Shown piece after piece: positions 3,510 through 39,981 of a stretch of DNA of 40,241 nucleotides. The stretch is from Bdellovibrionales bacterium (GTDB lineage: Bacteria; Bdellovibrionota; Bdellovibrionia; Bdellovibrionales; UBA1609). Below the pieces are notes generated by a model, which was not told where the DNA came from, did not search any database, and saw only the letters and a program-made list of their open reading frames with translations. Within the stretch, counting starts at the first letter, position 1, and every line of letters starts with the position of its first letter. A program made the position numbers and the translations under genes. The DNA lies in the NCBI GenBank assembly GCA_020850475.1, contig JADZEO010000163.1:1-40241 (forward strand), in the 5' to 3' direction.

Positions 3510-3706
3510 AGGGATCTCCTTCTTGCTTTTTATCTAGAGCGTAAGTAACTCGATGGGCCTGATGGCGAAAGGTCTTCGAGCCGAATTGAATTTTTTCCCC
3601 CATACAAAAGATGGGCGGGGGAAGTTGGCCTCGGCTCTTCAGCGCTCCTGATGTGAAGCGCACCGGTTGTTTTCACTAGTCAGCGACATTCTGTTCACAA
3701 TCAGCA

Positions 3707-4663
3707 TCAACAGACATCGAGCACTTTGTAGCCCTTCTCTGGCGTCTGACTGATAACCTCGGGCAGGTTTTGGATGATGGTCGTTTCTATGGCTTCGATG
3801 ATTGCCAGCTTCCAGTGGTCACGACGATAGATGATGCTAATTTCGCGAGTGGGAATCGGCGATTTAAACGGCCTGACGTGCGCGGCGACTTCATCTTTTC
3901 GCAGTGACGCTGCCATCAGAGCCGGAATCAGAGTGTAGCCCATACCCGTTTGAATCAAGCGGCGTAAGGTATCGAGGCTACCGCTGCGAAAATGAATGTT
4001 GGCATACGCCGCCTCCGGCCCCATGGGCACGGCACAAAAATTGATCACTTGGTCTTTGAAACAATGCCCGTCCTGCAACAGCCACATTTCGTTAGGATCC
4101 AATTGTGATCGCGAGATCTGTTCGTGCTTGAGTAACTCATGCCCAGTCGCGAAGTAGGCCAAAAAGTGTTCGTAATAGAGCGGACGAATTTTGTAGTCCG
4201 CTCCGTCGATCGGCGTAGCTAAGATCGCCGCATCCAAATGGTCGTTGGCGAGCTCGGTGAGAATCGTCTCGGTCTTCATTTCTTCAACATAGAGCTGCAC
4301 CTGACTAAATTTTTTGGCGAATGGCCGCAAGAAATACGGAAGCAAGTAACTGGCGACAGTCGGGATCACTGCCAACTTGAAATCTCCAGCGACCGAGCCC
4401 CCCTTGTTTTGTTTTGAGATGTGCATGAGTTTGTCGTTCTCCCTCAGCACCGTCTTCGCTTGTTCCAAAAAAAGCGCACCTTCCGGCGTGGGCAGAATGG
4501 GCTTTTTCACTCGATCAAAGAGAATAATCCCAATTTCGTCCTCCAGCTTTTGCAGCTGTTGCGACAGAGTGGGCTGTGACACATGGCAGGCCTCAGAGGC
4601 CTTGCCAAAATGGCGGTGTTTTTCCACCGCTATGGCGTACTGCAGCTGAGTTAAGGTTGGCAT
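3707..4663 (-). CDS. oxyR: OxyR, LysR-type hydrogen peroxide sensor
   Basis: A 318-residue LysR-type regulator. The N-terminal winged helix-turn-helix spans roughly residues 1-60 (LTQLQYAIAVEKHRHFGKAS...SQPTLSQQLQKLEDE), followed by the effector domain. The diagnostic OxyR redox segment LLQDGHCFKDQVINFC is present with Cys201 and Cys210, spaced nine residues apart as are the E. coli C199/C208 pair. The peroxide-driven disulfide switch therefore looks intact. It is divergent from ahpC-ahpF, the classical OxyR targets, and an OxyR-type half-operator lies between them. It probably represses or modulates itself from the same 127-base region. The ATG follows AGGAG. Confidence 0.95.
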   Translation of the reverse strand: MPTLTQLQYAIAVEKHRHFGKASEACHVSQPTLSQQLQKLEDEIGIILFDRVKKPILPTPEGALFLEQAKTVLRENDKLMHISKQNKGGSVAGDFKLAVIPTVASYLLPYFLRPFAKKFSQVQLYVEEMKTETILTELANDHLDAAILATPIDGADYKIRPLYYEHFLAYFATGHELLKHEQISRSQLDPNEMWLLQDGHCFKDQVINFCAVPMGPEAAYANIHFRSGSLDTLRRLIQTGMGYTLIPALMAASLRKDEVAAHVRPFKSPIPTREISIIYRRDHWKLAIIEAIETTIIQNLPEVISQTPEKGYKVLDVC

Positions 4664-28429: not shown

Positions 28430-28717
28430 TTATGCTGCTCGTTTATGAAGTTTAAGTTCTGGCACCAATCCAACAGCCTCAACCAATCGTAAAATTCGAT
28501 CAATCGTAATTTTTTGCAAGCTGCCCGACAGGATCCCAGTGACGGCACTTCGAGGTAACTTGGCTCTCTTGGCCAATGAGACATGGGTCATTTCCTGTTT
28601 CTCAACCTCTTTAATAACGGCGGCAATCAATTGCGCCTTAATGACGGCCTCAATTCCTCTTGATGAAGAGATTCCTAATTTTTTTGCGAGATCAACTCCC
28701 TTGTCTGACTTTTTCAT
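28430..28717 (-). CDS. XRE-family antitoxin (second toxin-antitoxin pair)
   Basis: A 95-residue helix-turn-helix protein. The DNA-binding core is MTHVSLAKRAKLPRSAVTGI followed by LSGSLQKITIDRILRLVEAVG, typical of antitoxins paired with the Gp49/HigB-like toxin group. Its start overlaps the toxin stop by four bases (ATGA). A good AAAGGGAG site precedes the ATG inside the toxin gene. It likely recognises the twin sites at 29037-29080. Confidence 0.82.
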   Translation of the reverse strand: MKKSDKGVDLAKKLGISSSRGIEAVIKAQLIAAVIKEVEKQEMTHVSLAKRAKLPRSAVTGILSGSLQKITIDRILRLVEAVGLVPELKLHKRAA

Positions 28718-29037
28718 AAAACTCCCTTTAACCTTTGTTTTGCTAATTCTATATTTTCTTTCGGTGTCTGCTGTGATTTCTTTTGAAATGCATGAATCAG
28801 CAAAATTTCAGACTGCTTCCGAATAAAATAAACTACCCTGTAAATCCCAGATCGATCTTTTAACCTTAGCTCGTGTACACCTTTGCCTATCGATGGCATA
28901 GGACGAGAAAGAGGCATCGATAAATTTATGCCCTCATCAAGCATTGCCAAGGCATCAGCTAAATCTTCTCTGATCGAAACTGGAAAATCCTTTAATTCTT
29001 TTTCACATTGTTTAACTATTGTGATCCCACTCTTAAT
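28714..29037 (-). CDS. RelE/Gp49-like toxin, start codon non-canonical or lost
   Basis: About 107 residues if read from the first codon after the upstream stop region. The family blocks are clear: KECE-like QCEKELKDFPVSIREDL, PMPSIGKGVHELRLKDRSG, IYRVVYF and HAFQKKSQQTPKENIELAKQRL. These show that the N-terminal 30 residues are coding. No ATG, GTG or TTG lies in frame upstream of codon 30 (TTG at 28950), only ATT at 29037, ATC and ATA. Either an unusual start is used or the start codon is mutated, which would silence the toxin. The end overlaps the antitoxin by four bases. Confidence 0.65.
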   Translation of the reverse strand: MKSGITIVKQCEKELKDFPVSIREDLADALAMLDEGINLSMPLSRPMPSIGKGVHELRLKDRSGIYRVVYFIRKQSEILLIHAFQKKSQQTPKENIELAKQRLKGVL

Positions 29038-29080: not shown

Positions 29081-29242
29081 TAGTGATTTGAGTCCGCAAA
29101 TGAGCGGAAATTTCAAGATTTCCGTCGCAATTTCGGTTTCTAGAATTCAAAGTTCCTGAATGACTTCACAAGACAAAAACAACCCCATATTGTTTTAATA
29201 TATTGAAATCATTGGATTTTAGTAAAATGGTGGTGGAGCCTA

Positions 29243-29714
29243 ATGGACAAACGAACCCAATCATCATCACGATTTTATTGAACTTTCCCCTAGAACACAA
29301 TCACGAATTTACGAGAAATGCGCCCCTTTATACGAAAAGGGCCTCTCTATTCGAGATATAGAAGAGCGCACAGGAATACCGAAATCTACTGTTCGCGAAG
29401 CTCTTACAAAGAGTGGGGTGTCACTGAGAAATCCCCTCAATGGAAATGCTCGCCACATAGATCGACTACATACTAAGCGAGGCGGACACACACCATACGG
29501 CTACGCTTATCTTGATGGGCAACTTCTCATTGATCCAAAAGAACAAATCATTGTCAGAAAAATTTTAAAGCTTCACCAATCAGGGATGTCAGGTAATGCC
29601 ATTGCTACCGAATTGAATTGCCAAAAGATTCCAAGTCGCACTGGCAAAACGTGGCGTCCTTGCGTGGTCAGAAGAATCATCAAAGCTAACCAAACAAAGA
29701 AAACGAAAAAGTAG
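29243..29714 (+). pseudogene. Recombinase C-terminal-domain protein with helix-turn-helix, frameshifted (module 2)
   Basis: ATG 29243 follows GGTGGAG and reads MDKRTQSSSRF, then hits a stop. Removing one T from the T4 at 29273-29276 continues into a long frame ending at 29714, about 156 residues in all. That frame has a resolvase-like helix-turn-helix (YEKGLSIRDIEERTGIPKST), a basic linker, then the Recombinase-domain pattern TPYGYAYLDGQLLIDPKEQ, ILKLHQSGMSGNAIATELN, RTGKTWRPCVVRRIIK. There is no serine recombinase catalytic domain. A GTG at 29418 could give a shortened product. A small peptide gene follows nine bases later. The frameshift may be real or an assembly error. Confidence 0.65.
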
Positions 29715-29723
29715 GAGGATCAA

Positions 29724-29885
29724 GTGAATAGTCTTATCAAAATCGCAGTCGTATTGGCCTTTGCCACTGTAGCTAGTGGCAATCTACCCAAGATCATCAA
29801 CCAAGTTCGCAGGGCTCAATTTCAGCTCATCATGGAATCCAAGGCTTCCAATTGGCCTAAGGCGGTGCGTATGCCGAGTAGGTAA
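29724..29885 (+). CDS. Small secreted/membrane peptide (module 2 partner)
   Basis: A 53-residue product from GTG 29724, five bases after AGGAGG (29713-29718). A hydrophobic leader (IKIAVVLAFATVASG) is followed by a basic amphipathic stretch, NLPKIINQVRRAQFQLIMES, then KASNWPKA and a short basic tail. Gly, Gln8, Val9, Leu-Ile, Ser20 and a Trp after it align with the 65-residue peptide at 26875-27072 (counting from the Gly). It is too short for most automated gene callers. The stop is 75 bases from the convergent TetR gene. Confidence 0.6.
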   Translation: MNSLIKIAVVLAFATVASGNLPKIINQVRRAQFQLIMESKASNWPKAVRMPSR

Positions 29886-29959
29886 CAAAGTCCCTGCCCT
29901 ATATCCAGAAGTACAGCCCGCTAGGAGTATACAAATTTTTCTGGATGAAAATAAAGACA

Positions 29960-30622
29960 TTAGGGTTTAATGCCATTTAATAGAATGTCTAAAATTTGGT
30001 CGAGTTCTTCTTGATCATTCCATTTTGGCGAAGAGCCCATGACATGTTTCGCTAAAACATATGCCATAATGATCGAAAACAAAGTGCGAGCGACTGTGTC
30101 TGATTTTAAATTTTTTCGAATTTGTCCAGATTTTTGCAAACCCTCAATGGACGCAATAGCTTCAGACCAGACCTCTTTCTCCCACAAACCAATAACCCGC
30201 TCTCTAAGGTCTGTGTTTTTTAATACTTCAATAAGCATGAATCGAATTTTGCCTTTATTTTCCCGAGCCACTTCCAATCGATCTTGAAATATTTTTGTAA
30301 ACATTCCCTCAATTCCAAGTTCAGAGCTTTTGAAAAGAGACTTCATTTTGCTGATCTGTAAAGGGAAAACAGTTTTTAGTAGCAGCGGAAACATCACCCT
30401 TTTTAGTAAATCATCTTTAGATGGAAAATAGCGAAAAAGGGTTCGTTCTGTGACGCCAGCCTTTTTGGCAATCTCTGCCGTTGGAGTATCAGAAGCGCCC
30501 TTCTCAGAGAAAAGAATTTCAGCAGCCGCTATAATTGATTTCTCTTTTTGAGACAACGCCTGGTCATAACGAGTCGCCTCCTCGGCCAAGGTCTCAAAAT
30601 TAATTTCCTTTGGGTTTCGCAT
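29960..30622 (-). CDS. TetR-family transcriptional repressor
   Basis: A 220-residue TetR/AcrR-type protein. The N-terminal helix-turn-helix spans residues 25-75: EKSIIAAAEILFSEKGASDT, TAEIAKKAGVTERTLFRYF, PSKDDLL. The C-terminal all-helical ligand domain is diverse. It is divergent from the envelope-transport operon, with two matching palindromes between them, so it presumably represses both directions until a ligand binds. The ATG follows an AGGAG-like site. Confidence 0.93.
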   Translation of the reverse strand: MRNPKEINFETLAEEATRYDQALSQKEKSIIAAAEILFSEKGASDTPTAEIAKKAGVTERTLFRYFPSKDDLLKRVMFPLLLKTVFPLQISKMKSLFKSSELGIEGMFTKIFQDRLEVARENKGKIRFMLIEVLKNTDLRERVIGLWEKEVWSEAIASIEGLQKSGQIRKNLKSDTVARTLFSIIMAYVLAKHVMGSSPKWNDQEELDQILDILLNGIKP

Positions 30623-30677
30623 AGTTAACTCCTGCTGTTCTGATCTAACGAGCCAGAATTCTATTTCCCGCCTGTCG

Positions 30678-30699
30678 AAGTATAGTATTTACTATACTT
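30678..30699. promoter_or_regulatory. TetR operator 1
   Basis: A perfect 22-base palindrome with 10-base arms (AAGTATAGTA / TACTATACTT) around a two-base centre. Its inner 18 bases match operator 2 in the form GTATAGTR-N2-YACTATAC. It lies 56 bases upstream of the TetR start and 68 before the permease start. Confidence 0.8.
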
Positions 30700-30714
30700 T
30701 CCGATAAGGCAGTT

Positions 30715-30732
30715 GTATAGTGAACACTATAC
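30715..30732. promoter_or_regulatory. TetR operator 2
   Basis: A perfect 18-base palindrome, GTATAGTG AA CACTATAC. Its centre is 35 bases from that of operator 1. TATAGT within it can serve as a -10 box for the operon, so binding would block transcription. It lies 35 bases before the permease start. Confidence 0.8.
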
Positions 30733-30766
30733 TCGCAAAGAGATCACAAAACAAGGTGAGGTTACA

Positions 30767-32092
30767 ATGTTTGATCTAATTAAAGTCGCCATTCGAAACG
30801 TGGGTCGCAACACGCGAAGAGCCCTGATTACTATCATCACTGTATTTATTGGCGTCTTTGTCGTGGTTGGAATTCGCGGGCTTTTAGATGGACTTCAAAA
30901 TGAAATCAAAAGCGGGCTCACCCGAAAAATGCATGGGGATGTTCAAATTCATCGTTTAGGTTACGAGGACTCTCTTGAGGCCAATCCCTATAAAATACTC
31001 ATTCCCTACACAGTTGAAACAACGGATTTGCTAAAAAATACCGACGGCGTAGTTGAGGTTACTCCTCGATTGAAGGTGATGGCCCTTTTGAATCACCAAA
31101 AAAGTCAGTCTACCACGCCTGTCATCATCAATAGTTTTTCTTCACAAACAGAGTTTCAAGTTGTTCCCCGCTTTAAAGACTCTCTATTAAAAGGAAAAAT
31201 GATTGATTCAAGTCTTGAGAAAGAGGCCTCGTCCATTGCCGATGATGACCTGAGTGAGGCAACGGGTCTGGACGAAAAAGCCTCCGAAGCAAAAGCACAT
31301 CCCAAAGCAGTGGGCAATCATCAGTTAATGGTCACCCCGAGTCTTATGAGAGGCCTCAATGCTGAGATAGGCGACGAGATCGTTATTCTACTTCAAGATA
31401 AAGATAACATGCAACAAGCGCTTGTGGCTACATTGGTTGGCGTTGTCGATTTTGCCATGCCCGGAGCCCAAGCCAGAATGGCCTGGATGGATTTTAACAC
31501 TCTCCAAAAAGCTGCCGGAATTCAAGGGCAAGCCTCGGAAATCGCCATACGTATCAAAGAAAATGCCGACTCTGAAATAGTAAGAACAAAATTGAAGGAA
31601 AAGTTAGACCCCAACTTAACGGTTCAAACATGGATCGAGCTTGCAGGAATTCTGCGAGACTCACTCAACCTTCAAAATGTAATTTTTAATCTTGTCATGT
31701 TCATTGTGTTTTCAATCGTTATTTCAGCAATTGTTAACACGTCCCTGATGACCGTAATGGAACGCACGCGCGAAATTGGGACTTTGATGGCCTTAGGATA
31801 TCGTCGATTTCATATTACTCTTCAATTTTTGATCGAGTCCGCCGTGATTGGCCTTATTGGTGGCATGACCGGAATGATCCTAGCCGTTTCAATTTTGCTA
31901 TTCTTGAATAATTACGGCCTAACGTTTGCCCTTCCGGGTCAGACTATCACAACCGTTTTATATCCAACGATCACGATTGGGTTTCTATTGAAAGTGTTTT
32001 TCTTAGCTCTGTTTTCTGCATTAGGCGCTAGTTTTGTACCTGCTTATCGGGCCAGTAAAATGAAACCCGTGCAGGCGCTGACTAGTAACTAA
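30767..32092 (+). CDS. FtsX/LolC-like ABC transporter permease
   Basis: A 441-residue permease. The ATG at 30767 follows AAGGTGAGG; the frame is open further upstream across the operator. One membrane segment lies near residues 20-40 (ALITIITVFIGVFVVVGIRG), a large periplasmic domain follows (about 45-310), then three C-terminal segments with the FtsX motif MERTREIGTLMALGYRR and FVPAYRASKMKPVQAL at the end. This is the MacB/LolC/E type, which pulls lipids or lipoproteins from the inner membrane. Its ATPase is encoded three genes downstream. Confidence 0.92.
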   Translation: MFDLIKVAIRNVGRNTRRALITIITVFIGVFVVVGIRGLLDGLQNEIKSGLTRKMHGDVQIHRLGYEDSLEANPYKILIPYTVETTDLLKNTDGVVEVTPRLKVMALLNHQKSQSTTPVIINSFSSQTEFQVVPRFKDSLLKGKMIDSSLEKEASSIADDDLSEATGLDEKASEAKAHPKAVGNHQLMVTPSLMRGLNAEIGDEIVILLQDKDNMQQALVATLVGVVDFAMPGAQARMAWMDFNTLQKAAGIQGQASEIAIRIKENADSEIVRTKLKEKLDPNLTVQTWIELAGILRDSLNLQNVIFNLVMFIVFSIVISAIVNTSLMTVMERTREIGTLMALGYRRFHITLQFLIESAVIGLIGGMTGMILAVSILLFLNNYGLTFALPGQTITTVLYPTITIGFLLKVFFLALFSALGASFVPAYRASKMKPVQALTSN

Positions 32093-32138
32093 AGTGTTGA
32101 TTGAAACCAGAGTGAGTTAATTGCGCGAGGAGGATCAA

Positions 32139-32867
32139 ATGACAAAGATAATCTTGGCACTTTCCCTTGGGGCGAGTTTAATTTTTACAGCTCATCCAGC
32201 AAAGGCTGAATCTGCGACAGAAATCATTACTAAAGTCGAAAAAAATTTGTCCCCACCAAATTTCAAGTCTCTTTATCAATTTACAAACTACCGTTTAGAC
32301 GGAACCAGTGCTCAGTACGATGTCCGCTTTAGCGTCAAAGATGTAAATCATAGTCATGGTTACTTCTTAAAACCAGAAAGGGAGAAGGGCCGCGAAACCT
32401 TACGACTGAAAGATACAATTTGGACCTATATGCCAAGCGTGGCAAGGGCAGTTCGTGTCGCAGACAGAGAGAGCTTTGCCGGTGGTGACTTTTCCAATGC
32501 TGATGTCATGCGAGTAGATTGGCTAGCGCAGTACAATGCATCGATTGCAAAAGAAACTAAAAATCAGTTTATTATCGACCTTGTTGCTAAGAACAGTGAG
32601 GCAGCGTATGCAAAAATGCGCATATGGATCGACAAAACAACAACACAACCCGTACAGCAGTATTTTTACGACTCAAAAGGAACTCTCTTGAAAATTTGCA
32701 AATACGGATCTGTTAAGACTTTCGGCAACATTACAAGGCCCGCTAAATTGGTCATGGAAAATGTGATTACTAAACTAAAATCAGAAATGCAAATCATCGA
32801 ACTTCAACTTGAAAATAAAATTCCAGATGGCCGATTTGTCGTTGATAATCTAGGTAAAGAAATATGA
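32139..32867 (+). CDS. LolA-like outer-membrane lipoprotein-sorting protein
   Basis: A 242-residue periplasmic protein. The ATG at 32139 follows GAGGAGG. Signal peptide (IILALSLGASLIFTAHPAKA), then a single beta-sheet concave fold typical of the LolA-like group paired with transporters: TIWTYMPSVARAVRVADRES and DVMRVDWLAQYN, with GGDFSNADV between. Such proteins carry lipids or lipoproteins across the periplasm. The stop overlaps the start of the next gene by four bases. Confidence 0.88.
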   Translation: MTKIILALSLGASLIFTAHPAKAESATEIITKVEKNLSPPNFKSLYQFTNYRLDGTSAQYDVRFSVKDVNHSHGYFLKPEREKGRETLRLKDTIWTYMPSVARAVRVADRESFAGGDFSNADVMRVDWLAQYNASIAKETKNQFIIDLVAKNSEAAYAKMRIWIDKTTTQPVQQYFYDSKGTLLKICKYGSVKTFGNITRPAKLVMENVITKLKSEMQIIELQLENKIPDGRFVVDNLGKEI

Positions 32868-34120
32868 AAAGTTATCTTCGACTCATGATCTTCTTTTTGA
32901 GTGGTCTTATTTTTCTAGGTGGACTCACAGCCCTAGGGGCAGATAATTCGGATGTGGATCTCGAAGAAGCCGCCGGGTTAGCCGATGAAACTCAAATGTC
33001 TGAGGCTACTTCTACTGAGACTACGACTTCCGATCCTCAGAACTCTTGGTTTAATAGAGGCAGAACAAGGACATATTTGCTAATTGATGGCACTCAAACT
33101 TCCGGAAGCACCAACGATCAAATCCACTTTCCAAATGGCCAATTAAGCTTTTCTGGTGATTTCAAAATTCTAAACGAGAGTTTTTTGATAGTCGATGCTG
33201 TTGTGAATTATGATGATAAGGACAAAGAAGGCTCTCTTTTTCTCAATCAAGTCGGCTTTCGCTCCCGCCTGAGTGACAGCGCGCAGTATTTTATTGGAAA
33301 AGAACGCAATCGGAGATCTCCTGGATTACTGATATCTCCCAGTGATTTCATATATTCAAATACGAATTTACCGGGTCAACGAGAAGATCGAAAGGGTGTC
33401 TGGCTTGGTCGCCTTTCGTATCAAAAAATCAATGGAAGTATCGATTTCTTAATACTGCCCGTGCAAAGTGAAACCTTAGAAGGCTTGCCCGATTCCAAGC
33501 AAAACAGCAATGAGGGTGCCATCAGAGGACTTTATCAATTCTCCGGAATTGATGTCAGTCTTATGGTCGGGCGATACCTAGGCACAAATCGAGCAGGCAC
33601 ATCAGTACAAACTCTTTTACTTAATAAGTATAAGATGTATGTCGAGCTTGGCACCCAAGAAGAAATTACGCGATATAACAACACAAAAAAAAACTACCCT
33701 GTTCAGAGTTTGGCAGGTTTCGGTTATGAAGCGAGCGAAGACTTCTCTGTACGACTTGAATATTTCGAAAATGGTCAGGGACTCAAGTCTGATGAGTTTA
33801 ATCAAATGATGCGACTCAGATCGTTGTCGCCGTCCCAGTTCGCTGGAAACACAAATTTGCAATCACCATTTATTAGGCAAAAATATTTAATCACGAGCGT
33901 TACATTCCCTGAGATCAAAAAAAAATACAACTTCACGATTTCAGGTATTAAAAGCTTAGAGGATGACTCGCTTTTAAGCATTGCCCGACTAGAGTATCTT
34001 GCTACGGATAAACTTTTAGCGGGCCTTAGTTTCACCAAAATGCAAGGTGGAACAGGATCACAATATCAGTATCGCAACTTCGACACTCAAGCGACAGCGG
34101 ATTTAAAGTATACATTTTAA
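32864..34120 (+). CDS. Outer-membrane beta-barrel protein of the transport operon
   Basis: A 418-residue exported protein. The signal peptide (LMIFFLSGLIFLGGLTALGA) is followed by an acidic Thr/Glu-rich linker (about 28-60), then amphipathic strands through to a terminal LKYTF. Strand-like segments include AQYFIGKERN, VSLMVGRYLGTN and YNFTISGIKS. It overlaps the LolA-like gene by four bases, so the two are coupled. Together they suggest a route from inner to outer membrane. No family recognised. Confidence 0.75.
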   Translation: MKSYLRLMIFFLSGLIFLGGLTALGADNSDVDLEEAAGLADETQMSEATSTETTTSDPQNSWFNRGRTRTYLLIDGTQTSGSTNDQIHFPNGQLSFSGDFKILNESFLIVDAVVNYDDKDKEGSLFLNQVGFRSRLSDSAQYFIGKERNRRSPGLLISPSDFIYSNTNLPGQREDRKGVWLGRLSYQKINGSIDFLILPVQSETLEGLPDSKQNSNEGAIRGLYQFSGIDVSLMVGRYLGTNRAGTSVQTLLLNKYKMYVELGTQEEITRYNNTKKNYPVQSLAGFGYEASEDFSVRLEYFENGQGLKSDEFNQMMRLRSLSPSQFAGNTNLQSPFIRQKYLITSVTFPEIKKKYNFTISGIKSLEDDSLLSIARLEYLATDKLLAGLSFTKMQGGTGSQYQYRNFDTQATADLKYTF

Positions 34121-34131
34121 TTGGAGGGTCT

Positions 34132-34809
34132 ATGATCGAACTTAAGAATGTGACTAAAAACTATGAAACTGGAAAGACCTTTGTTGAGGCACTCAAGGGA
34201 GTCAGCTTCATATTCAAGAAATCTGATTTTGTTTTGATTCGCGGCCCTTCGGGATCAGGTAAGTCGACGCTATTGAATATTGTGGGTCTACTTGATAATC
34301 CCACCGATGGTGAGGTGTACCTGAACGGTCAAAAAGTTAGTTATGCTGATTTTGATGAACTGGCTACCCTGCGATCAAGAACTATTTCGTTCATCTTTCA
34401 GTCATTCAATTTAAATCCAGTTTTGACCGTTGAAGAAAATGTAATGGTTCCCCTCATGATTCGAAAGGACATTTCTCACGAGGAAAAAAAACGTCGGGTA
34501 ACTGACTGGATAGTGAAGACGGGGTTGTACGAGCATCGGCATCACCGGCCCGATGAACTTTCTGGGGGGCAAAGGCAGCGTGTGGCCATCGCCCGTGCCA
34601 TGGTCACAGAACCTGAAATTGTCATCGCTGATGAACCGACTGCAAATTTAGACTCGAAAACCACGCGTTCGATTCTGGAATTCATGCGACAACTCAACGA
34701 GGAGAAAAAAGTCACCTTCTTGTTTGCTACTCACGACCCTGTTCTAGACGAATATGCAAAAACAAGAGTCCAAATCAAGGATGGTATTTTGAGTGTGGTT
34801 ACAACATGA
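34132..34809 (+). CDS. LolD/MacB-like ABC transporter ATP-binding protein
   Basis: A 225-residue ATPase with the Walker [10 protein letters not shown] (38-46), Q-loop FQSFNLNP (89-96), signature [15 protein letters not shown] (143-157), Walker B IVIADEP (163-169) and H-loop ATHD. It belongs to the MacB/LolD branch and is the partner of the permease at 30767. Having the two split by the LolA-like and barrel genes is less usual but consistent with one operon. The ATG follows GGAGG. Confidence 0.94.
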
Positions 34810-35378
34810 TGAAATTGTTTTTCATCGGTCTAATCATTTCGGTTACACTTTCTGGACAAGCAAAAGCTGTTCAATTTGAGGGGTTTGAGTTTCCCCAAGA
34901 AGTCAAAGTAGAAGACGAGAAATTGGCTCTGAATGGCCTGGCCCTTCGAAAGGTCCCTTTTTTAGGAATTCGTGTCTTGGTCGCTGGATTTTATTTGCCT
35001 CAGCCTGTTTCTGAACCTTTGGCAATTGAAAAGATGGCAGGGCGAAAACAACTTCGCCTTCATTTTTTAAAAAACGTCTCAGCTAACACCATCGCGACGA
35101 CTTGGACCGAGGAATTGATGAAAAATTGTGTAACTTCTTGCCCTGAAATTAAAGAGAAGGCTGCGGGACTTGAAAGCCTCATTTACGGTGTTAAAAAGAA
35201 TGACCTTTTGGCAATTACTTTTGAAAAGGACCGGTTGATTTTTCAACTTAATGGTCAAAAGGGAGGTTCGATTAATGGACCGGAGTTCGCTTCAGCGTTT
35301 TTACGAATTTGGATCGGTGATCACCCGATCAACGAAGATTTCAAAAAGGATTTACTAAAACAATTCAGATTATTTTGA
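34806..35378 (+). CDS. Periplasmic chalcone-isomerase-like protein
   Basis: A 190-residue exported protein with a signal peptide (FFIGLIISVTLSGQAKA). The chalcone-isomerase-like fold is indicated by KLALNGLALRKVPFLGIRV followed by VAGFYLP, and by a C-terminal SAFLRIWIGDHPINEDFK. Bacterial members bind fatty acid or lipid-like ligands rather than chalcone. Translationally coupled to the ATPase gene by a four-base overlap (ATGA). It likely handles the substrate of the transporter. Confidence 0.85.
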   Translation: MMKLFFIGLIISVTLSGQAKAVQFEGFEFPQEVKVEDEKLALNGLALRKVPFLGIRVLVAGFYLPQPVSEPLAIEKMAGRKQLRLHFLKNVSANTIATTWTEELMKNCVTSCPEIKEKAAGLESLIYGVKKNDLLAITFEKDRLIFQLNGQKGGSINGPEFASAFLRIWIGDHPINEDFKKDLLKQFRLF

Positions 35379-35411
35379 ACGGGGTTCTTTAGTGTCCCCA
35401 GAAAGAAAATT

Positions 35412-35828
35412 GTGAAAAAATTAAATCATCAAAGACCACCATGGATTTATGTGTTGGCTGCATTTTTAATATTGTTTGGCCTTCTAACAATTAAAGAGGG
35501 TGGTTCAGTTTTATTTTTTGACTCTACCGCAAGAGCTGAGGCTGGTAATTATGTGCCCCTTGTGTTGTGGTTTAACTTCCTCGCGGGTTTCTTTTATATC
35601 GCCGCAGGTATAGGCGTTTTTATAAGTGCAATTTGGACCAGACGCTTGTCCCTTATTATAGCAGGATCTTCCGCAGTAATTTTAGCGGCACTCTTAGTCC
35701 ACATATTAACTGGAGGACTTTACGAGACCAGAACATTAATTGCGATGACATTGAGGGTCACTATTTGGACGTTTACGTCCTTCATATTAACAAAAAATAA
35801 ACATTTACAACAAAGGAGTCATACATGA
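35412..35828 (+). CDS. Four-helix membrane protein, unknown function
   Basis: A 138-residue integral membrane protein with four hydrophobic segments (roughly residues 12-35, 48-72, 80-100 and 108-127). Starts at GTG after a weak AGAAAG site. It overlaps the cupin gene by four bases and follows the chalcone-isomerase-like gene by 33. It may belong to the same transcript or start a second unit. No family recognised. Confidence 0.65.
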   Translation: MKKLNHQRPPWIYVLAAFLILFGLLTIKEGGSVLFFDSTARAEAGNYVPLVLWFNFLAGFFYIAAGIGVFISAIWTRRLSLIIAGSSAVILAALLVHILTGGLYETRTLIAMTLRVTIWTFTSFILTKNKHLQQRSHT

Positions 35829-36121
35829 GCGCGAGAGGTTCAATTAAAGACATGGTCTCATACAAACAAGAGGGCAAATCAATCAATGTTCTCTTTGCAG
35901 AAGGCTTCAAAGCCGTGGGCATTGGTTTATTAGCAATACAAAAACTTGAAAAACACAGCACATCGACACCTGCATTTCTGTTAGTTTTAGAGGGAAGTGT
36001 TGAGTTCCAGCTTGATGGAACGAAGTGCATATTGAACAGCCAGGATTTTTTTAAAATCCCACCAAGTCAAGAGCACGAAATTACTGCGTTAGAAAATTCA
36101 AAAATGATTTTAATAAAATAA
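35825..36121 (+). CDS. Small cupin-domain protein
   Basis: A 98-residue single cupin. A beta-barrel pattern is seen in PAFLLVLEGSVEFQLDG, ILNSQDFFKIPPSQEHEITA. His in EHEITA and the acidic/His positions match cupin motif 2; motif 1 has only STSTPAF where His-x-His would be, so the metal site may be incomplete. The ATG follows AAAGGAG inside the previous gene's end. Ten bases separate it from the next membrane protein. Confidence 0.75.
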   Translation: MSARGSIKDMVSYKQEGKSINVLFAEGFKAVGIGLLAIQKLEKHSTSTPAFLLVLEGSVEFQLDGTKCILNSQDFFKIPPSQEHEITALENSKMILIK

Positions 36122-36131
36122 GGAGGCAATT

Positions 36132-36542
36132 ATGCACGGAAAGAAAAATATAGTTGTTGGGTTGTTCATTATGGCCGGTTTTATGCTTTATGGATTTTTA
36201 CTTATTTATTGGCGAGACTTCGCAGCTGATGCTGCGGAGTGGGCTGCAGCATATGGCAATGGGAAACATTTCGAGGCCAGACTTGCGCATGTACACGGCA
36301 ACCTTTTTGCTTTTTTGAATATACTGATTGGGTATCTTCTTTTCAAATTAGACATCGGTGATCAACAAAAGAAAATCGTGTCGTGGTTGGGTGTTATTGG
36401 CATCTTAATGCCGGTGGGAATTTTGATGGAACTTATTCTTAACGCATCACCGATTTTTGTCTTGGTCGGCGCAGTCAGCATGACAGCGAGTGTGTTTTTG
36501 CTGGGCGTATTTGTGGCGAAATCGAAAAAAGTGATTTTATAA
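36132..36542 (+). CDS. Four-helix membrane protein, second of the cluster
   Basis: A 136-residue integral membrane protein with four hydrophobic segments (about 8-27, 55-72, 84-103, 108-130) and a conserved-looking ARLAHVHGNLFAF motif with two His near the second helix. It follows AAGGAGG. A start ten bases after the cupin suggests co-expression. Function not recognised. Confidence 0.7.
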   Translation: MHGKKNIVVGLFIMAGFMLYGFLLIYWRDFAADAAEWAAAYGNGKHFEARLAHVHGNLFAFLNILIGYLLFKLDIGDQQKKIVSWLGVIGILMPVGILMELILNASPIFVLVGAVSMTASVFLLGVFVAKSKKVIL

Positions 36543-36564
36543 ATATATTAAAAGGAGAAAAGTC

Positions 36565-37022
36565 ATGAAGGCGATTTTAATTTCAGCAGTTTTGAGCTTT
36601 GTATTCAGCGGCCAGGCTATGCTGCAGAAAAAAACCACCATAGCCATGGAGATAGGACCACTATAACAGAAGTGAAGCCAGATAAAAAATTTATTGCAGA
36701 TGAAGCATTAAAAGAAAGAATGAATTCTATCTTAAGTGCGATGCAAGAATTAAACAAGACAGGGTCCGCCTCCGAAAAAAAGAAAGAAGTGATCACAACT
36801 GGCGGTCGTGTCGAATCTGTCGTGCAGGATATTTTTAAAAGCTGCAAGCTCGCTCCAGATGCAGATGCTGCAATCCATCCTATTCTGGCCGAAATTCTTG
36901 AGGGGGCCCATCTATTAAAAAACGGTATAGAGAAAGACGGGCACGAAAGAATACATAAAGCTCTTTTGAAATACGGAGATAATTTTGAGCATTCGGGCTG
37001 GAACCACAATCACACTGAATAG
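36565..37022 (+). pseudogene. His-rich secreted helical protein, frameshifted in the signal peptide
   Basis: ATG 36565 follows AAGGAGA and starts a signal peptide (ILISAVLSFVFSGQA) but then leaves frame. The correct frame resumes at TAT 36618 with YAAEKNHHSHGDRTT, which fits a cleavage site and a mature His-rich start, and runs to TAG 37020. An extra T near 36617 would restore a 150-residue-class protein. The mature part is helical and ends HSGWNHNHTE, so metal or heme binding is possible. No family recognised. The defect may be real or an assembly error. Confidence 0.6.
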
Positions 37023-37401
37023 CTTCTTAACAGAGATGCAATGTGAACCGCATTTATGCTGGAGAGAAATCTGAACGAGGGTGTTCGACTCTCGCCACCA
37101 TCTAACCAACTCAATGGATAGGCGAACACCTTCTTAAAAATTTTGGCCCAGTGATTCTGCAGACTTACGAGCCAGCACTGGACGCTGGTTCGCTTAAAAA
37201 AATGGTGGAGGTATTTTTTCGCCTCTAACCCCTTGATTTTCCTCACACTGGGCCTCGTTGGGCTTCATATAAATATTAAATCCTGAAAAGGGCCTTGGGT
37301 GAAATGTCACATTTTTTCGAAGAAATGTGAAGTTTGGCAACTACCGAGGCGAATAGGGATATCGTCACCCAAAACTGCCAAATTTGACATTTTTAATATT
37401 C
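37023..37401. other. Island-junction intergenic region with tRNA-like and structured elements
   Basis: No gene is supported here. A stretch at 37071-37105 resembles the 3' end of a tRNA or tmRNA (T-loop-like GTTCGACT, then CTCGCCACCA and ACCA). GGTGTTCG (37080-37087) pairs with CGAACACC (37123-37130). A near-perfect 24-base palindrome lies at 37307-37330. Inverted repeats 37295-37302/37365-37372 and 37333-37339/37376-37382 interleave in a pseudoknot-like order. Confidence 0.45.
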
Positions 37402-39393: not shown

Positions 39394-39981
39394 ATGAAAA
39401 ACACGAAAAAGGCTTTCGAAAAGCTGTTTAAAAAACCCGCTTTTTCTACAAAAGATGCCAAAGCAGTTGGAATCAGTGCGGCCAGTCTCTCCTATTATTC
39501 AAAAATGGGCTTTATTGAAAGGGTGTCCCATGGGGTTTATCGCAACCCCAACTTTGAAAGCTCTGCTCCATTCGAGTGGCAAGACCTTCTTGAAACTGCA
39601 CAGAGCATCCCTGAAGGAACCATCTGTCTGATTTCGGCTCTAGCATACTATGGTCTTACCCAGGAAATTCAAAGACAGTATTGGGTTGCTGTCCCTCACG
39701 AAATGGGGCTGATTAAACGACCAAAAACTAAGATCATTAGAACCCGCAACTTCAAGCTGGGTCGACAACAACTTAAACTTGGTGAATATAAGACTTTCAT
39801 CTACGACAAAGAACGATGTGTAGTTGATGCCTTCAAAAAACTTTCAAAAGAATCTGCTATGCATTCTCTTAAGGCATACCTGAAGAGAACAGACGATCAT
39901 AAGCCTGATGTCTCAAAACTTGTGAAATATGCAAAAGAGCTTCGGGTCGATCTACTTCCATATATCGAGGCATTGACATGA
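39394..39981 (+). CDS. abiEi: AbiEi-type antitoxin (type IV toxin-antitoxin) with winged helix
   Basis: A 195-residue protein. The N-terminal winged helix (residues about 12-55: FSTKDAKAVGISAASLSYYS, MGFIERVSHGVYR) is followed by the AbiEi C-terminal domain (ICLISALAYYGLTQEIQRQY and the IYDKERCVVDAFKKLS motif). AbiEi proteins repress their own operon through inverted repeats and neutralise the nucleotidyltransferase toxin AbiEii in phage abortive infection. Its stop overlaps the start of the next gene by four bases. Confidence 0.88.
   Translation: MKNTKKAFEKLFKKPAFSTKDAKAVGISAASLSYYSKMGFIERVSHGVYRNPNFESSAPFEWQDLLETAQSIPEGTICLISALAYYGLTQEIQRQYWVAVPHEMGLIKRPKTKIIRTRNFKLGRQQLKLGEYKTFIYDKERCVVDAFKKLSKESAMHSLKAYLKRTDDHKPDVSKLVKYAKELRVDLLPYIEALT

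Follow-up and report, generated by a model that had tools for sequence, protein, structure and literature searches.

A putative trans-envelope export operon with a LolA-like carrier and a candidate outer-membrane barrel on a putative mobile cassette of a Bdellovibrionales bacterium

The operon among described envelope transport systems

LolA-superfamily carriers have been described together with inner-membrane transporters and outer-membrane barrels in more than one setting. The BBJ23-29 cluster of Borrelia, found on mobile replicons, encodes an ATPase, an FtsX-type permease, a LolA-like carrier, an Omp85-family barrel and two TPR proteins; its function is hypothetical, and a non-polar ligand was proposed (PMC13078400). 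The AmeABCD system of Castellaniella defragrans combines a DUF1302 barrel and a DUF1329 LolA-superfamily protein with an RND pump; a deletion phenotype and evidence of export are reported for it (PMC6394551). The PP_0765/PP_0766/PP_2018/PP_2019 set of Pseudomonas putida likewise consists of an outer-membrane barrel, a LolA-superfamily carrier and an inner-membrane exporter (PMC6394551, PMC10866462). Here we analyse a 40,241-nucleotide stretch (the window) of contig JADZEO010000163.1 of a Bdellovibrionales bacterium (GCA_020850475.1; source genome, G000), in which an operon encodes an FtsX/MacB_PCD permease, a secreted LolA-like carrier, a candidate outer-membrane barrel of 418 residues, an ABC ATPase and a chalcone-isomerase-like (Chalcone_3) protein, with a divergent TetR gene in front. 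The operon spans positions 29960-35378, and a co-conserved block continues to ~37022 (Table 1). All genes named in an earlier reading of the DNA made without database searches (the sequence-only reading) were found where it had placed them, through Pfam and NCBIfam matches and open reading frames (ORFs), the barrel candidate matching no family in either collection.

The locus resembles the Borrelia cluster in bringing together an ATPase, an FtsX permease, a LolA-like carrier and a barrel (a candidate here), in the proposal of a non-polar ligand and in its association with mobile DNA, and differs from it in its TetR, Chalcone_3, cupin and small proteins; no Omp85 or TPR match was obtained in the operon with Pfam, in which the 418-residue protein has no match at all. 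With AmeABCD and the P. putida set it shares the combination of barrel, LolA-superfamily carrier and inner-membrane exporter, which in those known systems serves the export of hydrophobic compounds. However, the AmeABCD type uses a proton-motive-force-driven RND/MMPL pump, DUF1302 and DUF1329, whereas here an ABC pump and a PF17131 carrier accompany a barrel candidate without family. The carrier scored 17.4 bits against DUF1329, under the cut-off of 23.1, and the window barrel had no match to DUF1302. This domain was found in 3 of the 27 aligned barrel-position proteins (L084 and L100 among them), the one in L100 standing at the barrel position of an ABC-FtsX-LolA operon.

MacAB-TolC is similar in its FtsX and MacB_PCD permease domains, its ABC-driven export of lipophiles or drugs and its TetR control. 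The YbhGFSR-like pump is a comparable tripartite ABC efflux system, and the likeness to this group extends to shared accessories, since relatives have the accessory genes of this operon alongside an OEP-HlyD-ABC2 operon. Unlike in MacAB-TolC, the places of HlyD/MacA and OEP/TolC are taken in the operon by a soluble carrier and a barrel candidate; no HlyD/MacA or OEP/TolC domain was detected in the ten proteins from TetR to o116, a search that did not extend to unlinked partners.

To the LolCDE-LolA-LolB pathway the operon is related by an FtsX-fold permease, a LolD-class ATPase and a LolA-fold carrier. It differs in having a single permease gene, a barrel-like gene in place of LolB, regulation and mobility, and in missing the equivalog cut-offs: the ATPase reached 225 bits with TIGR02211 (LolD; cut-off 307.75) and the permease 88.5 bits with TIGR02212 (LolC/E; cut-off 362.45), and the carrier reached 13.2 bits with PF03548 (LolA; cut-off 23.6). 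The source genome holds a separate PF03548 LolA gene on C82 and a better lolCE match on C84 (294 bits, which also falls short of the equivalog threshold). This supports a predicted export set that is separate from the Lol housekeeping machinery. The sequence-only reading had also set the operon apart from the standard Lol machinery, and this view stands on the separate genes and the missed cut-offs, but its contrast between barrel and LolB says little here, because no match to the LolB receptor (PF03550) was found in the whole genome, in a search whose control found E. coli only.

Conservation and regulation of the core genes

Comparison within a phylum sample of 290 genomes indicates that the predicted core (ATPase, permease, carrier and barrel gene) is a coherent module recurring across Bdellovibrionota. 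In the loci L004, L054, L055, L056, L057 and L058 the permease is 96, 96, 83, 55, 55 and 53% identical to that of the window, and the carrier 94, 94, 80, 58, 56 and 60% (in L058 over a fragment). The ATPase shows 98, 98, 69 and 65% identity in L004, L054, L056 and L058 and the barrel 89, 89, 36 and 29% in the same four; in L055, 104 residues of the barrel are present, at 47% identity. Contig ends truncate L055 and L057, and in L058 the reading frames of both the carrier and the ATPase are interrupted. The four core genes thus stay together in the strongest relatives, down to 29-69% identity. A mixed origin of the core, as suggested in the sequence-only reading, was rejected, since the four genes are conserved together in these relatives and the four-gene layout is met again on proteobacterial plasmids.

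In many Bdellovibrionota a barrel-like ORF lies straight after the LolA-like gene, mostly joined to it by an ATGA overlap. A same-strand, non-transporter ORF of at least 250 residues was found within 500 bp downstream of 35 of the 49 LolA-like ORFs in the context loci, a count which holds duplicates (L005 is part of L054; L006, among the 14 without such an ORF, equals L055; two L058 entries are fragments of one gene) and three clear non-barrels on reading (a recombinase in L050, an MFS-like protein in L086, a thiamine-enzyme-like protein in L094), and which misses L056 because its permease and carrier were read as one ORF. Among 20 further PF17131 loci, hand-picked as roughly every third unlisted row and not random, 11 have a barrel-like ORF of 355-439 residues directly after the carrier. 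Close relatives of the carrier itself occur in only a handful of the 290 genomes. The source genome has two more PF17131 genes, one of them followed by a 476-residue ORF ending in GWF; a second set there, L072 (G000:C112, 6984-12367), is made of an ABC gene, an 819-residue FtsX-type gene, a PF17131 gene and this ORF.

The permease has about four hydrophobic helices, near residues 18, 305, 360 and 406, with a large domain between the first two, and its phmmer matches were MacB, LolC, LolE and LolF chains. The signal peptide of the carrier ends in ...PAKA, no lipobox was seen in the protein, and its structure matches were 3buu (E 1.3e-15), 3bk5 and 9tp6. For the 418-residue protein, the assignment as an outer-membrane barrel is supported only indirectly, by features of its sequence and by its position: it starts with a signal peptide, lacks cysteine and any further hydrophobic helix, and has an aromatic C terminus (...LKYTF), and it shares its place in the operon with the barrel-like proteins of relatives. 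It was linked by profile comparison to one barrel-position group of Bdellovibrionota, A2 (probability 92%, E 6e-7). A link to another group, A3, was not supported (profile probability 6.4%), and a PDB profile search with the barrel alignment gave no match.

Two perfect copies of the palindrome GTATAGT-N4-ACTATAC lie between tetR and the permease gene. Even with one mismatch allowed, the 3.9-Mb genome has no further site (and none for the backwards pattern used as control), and two matches appeared in none of 100 shuffles within the window. A divergent TetR gene is also present in L004, L054, L055, L057 and L058, with 93, 94, 71, 33 and 30% identity to that of the window. Both palindromes are perfect in L004, L054 and L055; in L057 operator 1 is kept perfect and operator 2 is degenerate, L058 has imperfect versions only, and L056 lacks both the TetR gene and the palindromes. 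Since the palindromes are unique in the genome and conserved in relatives, the proposal that the putative regulator is dedicated to this operon, made already in the sequence-only reading, is well supported.

The tight spacing claimed earlier was seen in ATGA overlaps of four bases at two junctions (carrier/barrel and ATPase/chalcone-isomerase-like) and in a gap of 11 nt between barrel and ATPase genes, with 46 nt between permease and carrier. However, the interval given at the time, which closed with the chalcone-isomerase-like gene, ends too early, as conserved genes run on to 37022. This block, o138-cupin-o136-o116 (35412-37022), is mostly as tightly spaced as the operon, with a further ATGA overlap at 35825, and L004 and L054 keep the block downstream of the operon. 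L062 (G154) also has these four small genes, there with a TetR gene in front of them and immediately upstream of another ABC-FtsX-LolA-barrel set. In the window copy of o116 (36566-37022) the apparent signal-peptide start and the body do not share a reading frame, which may reflect a broken gene or an error of assembly.

Table 1. Predicted features of the operon and the putative cassette, in window positions
Feature	Positions	Strand	Basis or remark
Putative mobile cassette carrying the operon	29224-37212	+	end-to-end DNA identity with L054 and L004; boundary motifs
Cassette 5' gene, small helix-turn-helix (HTH) + Recombinase domain	29244-29714	+	PF07508, 31 bits; no catalytic domain in frame
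TetR-family regulator	29960-30622	-	PF00440, 62 bits; divergent from operon
Operator 1 (putative)	30680-30697		GTATAGT-N4-ACTATAC palindrome; tetR-permease gap
Operator 2 (putative)	30715-30732		same palindrome; tetR-permease gap
FtsX/MacB_PCD permease	30767-32092	+	PF02687, 61.7 bits; PF12704, 49.1 bits
LolA-like carrier, secreted	32139-32867	+	PF17131, 136.6 bits (cut-off 30)
Outer-membrane beta-barrel candidate, 418 residues	32864-34120	+	signal; position in relatives; profile link to another Bdellovibrionota barrel-position group
ABC ATPase, LolD/FtsE/MacB class	34132-34809	+	PF00005; TIGR02211 (LolD) below cut-off
Chalcone_3 (chalcone-isomerase-like) protein with signal peptide, accessory	34806-35378	+	PF16036, 104.1 bits (cut-off 27)
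o138, small membrane protein	35412-35828	+	weak DUF7144 similarity
Small cupin	35825-36121	+	PF07883, 34.4 bits; in conserved block
o136, small hydrophobic protein	36132-36542	+	no Pfam match
o116, small His-rich protein	36618-37022	+	conserved block
Cassette 3' end	37083-37192	+	tRNA-3'-like GTTCGACTCTCGCCACCATCT; hairpin TTACGAGCCA...TGGTTCG; fold

Mobility, plasmid layouts and accessory genes

The operon lies in a unit of ~8 kb (29224-37212) for which recent horizontal acquisition is strongly supported by comparison of genomes. Over its full length the unit is 91.6% identical in DNA to L054 (G276, a member of another family; 16971-nt contig) and L004 (G290), against 58% protein identity between an AhpF-like chromosomal marker of the window and its G276 counterpart, this one protein being the only marker used. 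Acquisition had been proposed before from low G+C content alone. The low value is real, but it does not single out the operon: everything right of ~28.5 kb is low, the window having 40.9% G+C right of 28.5 kb and 51.6% left of 28 kb, with ~41% in the cassette and 52-54% in contigs elsewhere in G000. Low G+C as proof that only the operon was acquired was therefore rejected.

The motif TGGTGGA is present at both ends of the putative cassette (29231-29237 and 37203-37209). Its 5' gene was found in 61 of the 290 genomes (E 1e-10), and copies of this gene start successive units in L054 (at 179, 6236, 8845 and 16833), the units of G276 being arranged in tandem. Besides the window and L054, the putative element was noted in L134, L135, L136, L137 and L140, and its cargo varies. 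In G083, G061 and G212, sister units of ~4-4.6 kb lie immediately next to a tmRNA gene, at its 3' end, as ARAGORN and the boundaries indicate; the right flank of the cassette in the window is not a tmRNA. On reading, the cargo of the sister units appears to be a regulator with detoxification or NAD(P)-binding genes and, in one case, a DMT-type transporter; the units read showed no catalytic recombinase. The 3' end of the cassette is rich in hairpins, a point of comparison with integron gene cassettes. A limited open-access search returned no published description of such an element in Bdellovibrio-like bacteria. Right of the cassette, the window contains defence-type genes, an OLD-like TOPRIM ATPase (AAA_15, PF20469; 37552-39333) followed by an AbiEi-like antitoxin (39394-39981), and near the G+C step at 28.5 kb an HTH_37 antitoxin-like gene (28430-28900) with a probable toxin partner beside it.

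The same layout was met on plasmids beyond the phylum. A tblastn search with the carrier matched 23 plasmid records, and gene content was taken from nine of them. Six of these nine regions hold an ABC gene, an FtsX gene, a LolA-like gene and an ORF of ~390-480 residues; the hosts are E. coli G8, Enterobacter bugandensis, Rahnella sikkimica, Paraburkholderia ginsengisoli, Aliiroseovarius crassostreae and Bdellovibrio, whose plasmid pBdHAGR2 has the order carrier-ATPase-permease-ORF. The other three are one MMPL locus and two loci with two permeases. The four-gene layout thus occurs on alpha-, beta- and gamma-proteobacterial replicons with different outer-membrane-type proteins, which are partly interlinked (L049-L053-L143 and L049-L142-L141). 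Five of the six modules are embedded in, or close to, genes for biosynthesis of polyketide/fatty-acid type (ketosynthases with an enoyl-CoA hydratase, a malonyltransferase, or a P450 with a phosphopantetheinyl transferase). In L049, L053, L141, L142 and L143, ABC-FtsX-LolA-like-hypothetical modules are found inside or near such ketosynthase or P450 clusters, and it may be that their hypothetical proteins export polyketide-like products across the outer membrane without having been recognised as exporters.

The sequence-only reading had tied both the barrel and the chalcone-isomerase-like gene to the transporter; a gene at the barrel position accompanies it widely elsewhere, but the chalcone-isomerase-like gene does not. 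PF16036 is present in 116 of the 290 genomes, and the window, L004 and L054 are the sole cases of it inside the operon; the stretches fetched around 20 other PF16036 loci showed neither FtsX nor LolA-like genes. The closest relatives of the window copy, L149 (115 bits) and L150 (126 bits), terminate an operon of the order TetR, o116, o138, OEP/TolC, HlyD, ABC, ABC, ABC2, ABC2, Chalcone_3, which was assembled across neighbouring stretches, with Pfam confirming the scanned parts and o116 present in G173 only. The gene was therefore rejected as a core part and is, judging from these neighbourhoods, a predicted loose accessory. Relatives of o138 are found in the TolC operons of L149 and L064. In two distantly related genomes the ABC-FtsX-LolA-barrel module and the TolC operon share a contig, ~15 kb or less apart (L062 and L149 on G154:C7; L064 and L150 on G173:C4). 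The association of the same accessories with two exporters, one of them classical and tripartite, favours small hydrophobic compounds as the cargo. In L056 (G046) a gene of the ChaN/Tiki superfamily of haem-binding proteins (PF04187, 160 bits; 3606-4547) follows the ATPase in place of the chalcone-isomerase-like gene.

Predicted cargo and alternative functions

On balance, we lean towards a reading in which the core is an ATP-driven exporter of a small hydrophobic compound across the whole envelope, repressed by TetR, served by accessories that bind or modify the compound, and carried as a coherent module on the recent ~8-kb cassette. At the inner membrane, the permease dimer and the ATPase would extract a small lipophile (xenobiotic, fatty-acid-like or polyketide-like) from the outer leaflet; a soluble shuttle, the LolA-like protein, would carry it through the periplasm in a hydrophobic pocket, replacing the membrane fusion protein-TolC conduit, and would pass it on to the barrel, which would release it at the outer membrane or outside it. 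TetR would repress the operon through the two operators and presumably be released by the compound, and the chalcone-isomerase-like, small membrane and cupin proteins may act as accessories binding or modifying it. A TetR-controlled export set covering inner membrane, periplasm and, with the barrel as a candidate, outer membrane, as envisaged in the sequence-only reading, agrees with the gene content, the operators and the separate Lol genes. The reading as a whole draws on the co-conserved core, the profile link to group A2, the DUF1302 barrel of L100, the biosynthetic neighbours of the plasmid modules, the accessories shared with an efflux operon, the two unique operators, the separate canonical LolA and lolCE-like genes and the analogy with AmeABCD. 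The parts, their order and spacing, the conserved operators and the transfer are shown, whereas the substrate class, the direction of transport, the roles of carrier and barrel and the induction by a ligand are inferred. Our literature search found no paper on an ABC-FtsX-LolA-barrel module in Bdellovibrionota.

Several observations weigh against this reading. The operon itself provides no evidence on the substrate. The barrel gene is absent from nine of the 20 sampled PF17131 loci, of which one (L085) is cut by a contig end; the others are L086, L093, L094 and five loci of LolA-FtsX-FtsX-ABC composition (L090, L092, L095, L097 and L101). AlphaFold2 models had a mean predicted local distance difference test score of 28.6 for the barrel and 32.4 for the permease, the alignments being shallow. 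A simple amphipathicity score was not significant for the barrel (z 1.88) and was -0.16 for its L056 homologue; this score does not discriminate, as the permease gave z 1.2 and controls of known type were mixed. Finally, the outer-membrane-type proteins of the plasmids had no sequence link to the window barrel, so the plasmid analogy is one of layout and not of a homologous barrel.

The alternative that survives best, which we nevertheless consider rather unlikely, is that the operon serves envelope remodelling by sending lipids of the cell's own envelope (fatty acids, glycolipids, modified phospholipids) outward, either to the outer membrane or through it, with the chalcone-isomerase-like protein as a periplasmic fatty-acid binder. 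The LolA-like and LolCDE/MacB-like parts and the secreted Chalcone_3 protein would fit such a role, which was also the one preferred in the sequence-only reading, and some plasmid relatives reside within fatty-acid-synthase-like clusters. However, the unit has no lipid-synthesis gene, and a mobile, cassette-borne and TetR-switched set is unlike housekeeping lipid transport. The distribution is also sporadic, as seen from the few genomes with close LolA relatives, and the accessories accompany a drug-efflux-type operon too.

It is improbable, in our view, that the operon is a dedicated lipoprotein-sorting or surface-export pathway, that is, a second Lol system with the barrel in the role of LolB, of the kind proposed for BBJ23-29. 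The ATPase does match LolD best and the permease does match lolCE, and the parts are of the same kind as those of the Borrelia cluster (PMC13078400). Nevertheless, all Lol equivalog cut-offs and that of PF03548 were missed, canonical LolA and lolCE-like genes exist separately in the genome, and no obvious lipoprotein substrate gene was noticed in the unit, on reading and not by a systematic search. Uptake, with the barrel importing a lipophile and the carrier delivering it inward, is very improbable: a barrel of unknown family can serve for uptake and TolC is absent from the unit, but the FtsX/MacB-fold (type VII) ABC transporters whose function is known work by extraction or export (PMC13078400), and the related modules are linked to biosynthesis clusters and the accessories to efflux.

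Beyond export by this operon, we tentatively raise the possibility of a distinct class of trans-envelope exporters, in which a type VII ABC pump would deliver small lipophiles to a soluble shuttle of LolA-like type and then to a dedicated barrel, with no adaptor-TolC part. Such exporters might serve natural-product export in Proteobacteria and xenobiotic efflux in bacteria of predatory lineages, in the latter as cargo of an undescribed cassette with a recombinase-domain 5' gene lacking the catalytic domain, a structured 3' end, TGGTGGA boundaries and, in sister units, insertion at the tmRNA 3' end. LolA-superfamily carriers are usually annotated as 'outer membrane lipoprotein-sorting protein'. 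Given the recurrent module, the biosynthetic neighbourhoods and the accessories linked to efflux, many of these carriers may belong to exporters of lipophiles; if true, this would correct a large body of annotation and would offer a testable TolC-free route for the secretion of hydrophobic molecules by Gram-negative bacteria. In predatory lineages, the cassette would be a route of gene exchange, sister copies with cargo of the detoxification type lying at tmRNA genes of several Bdellovibrionota.

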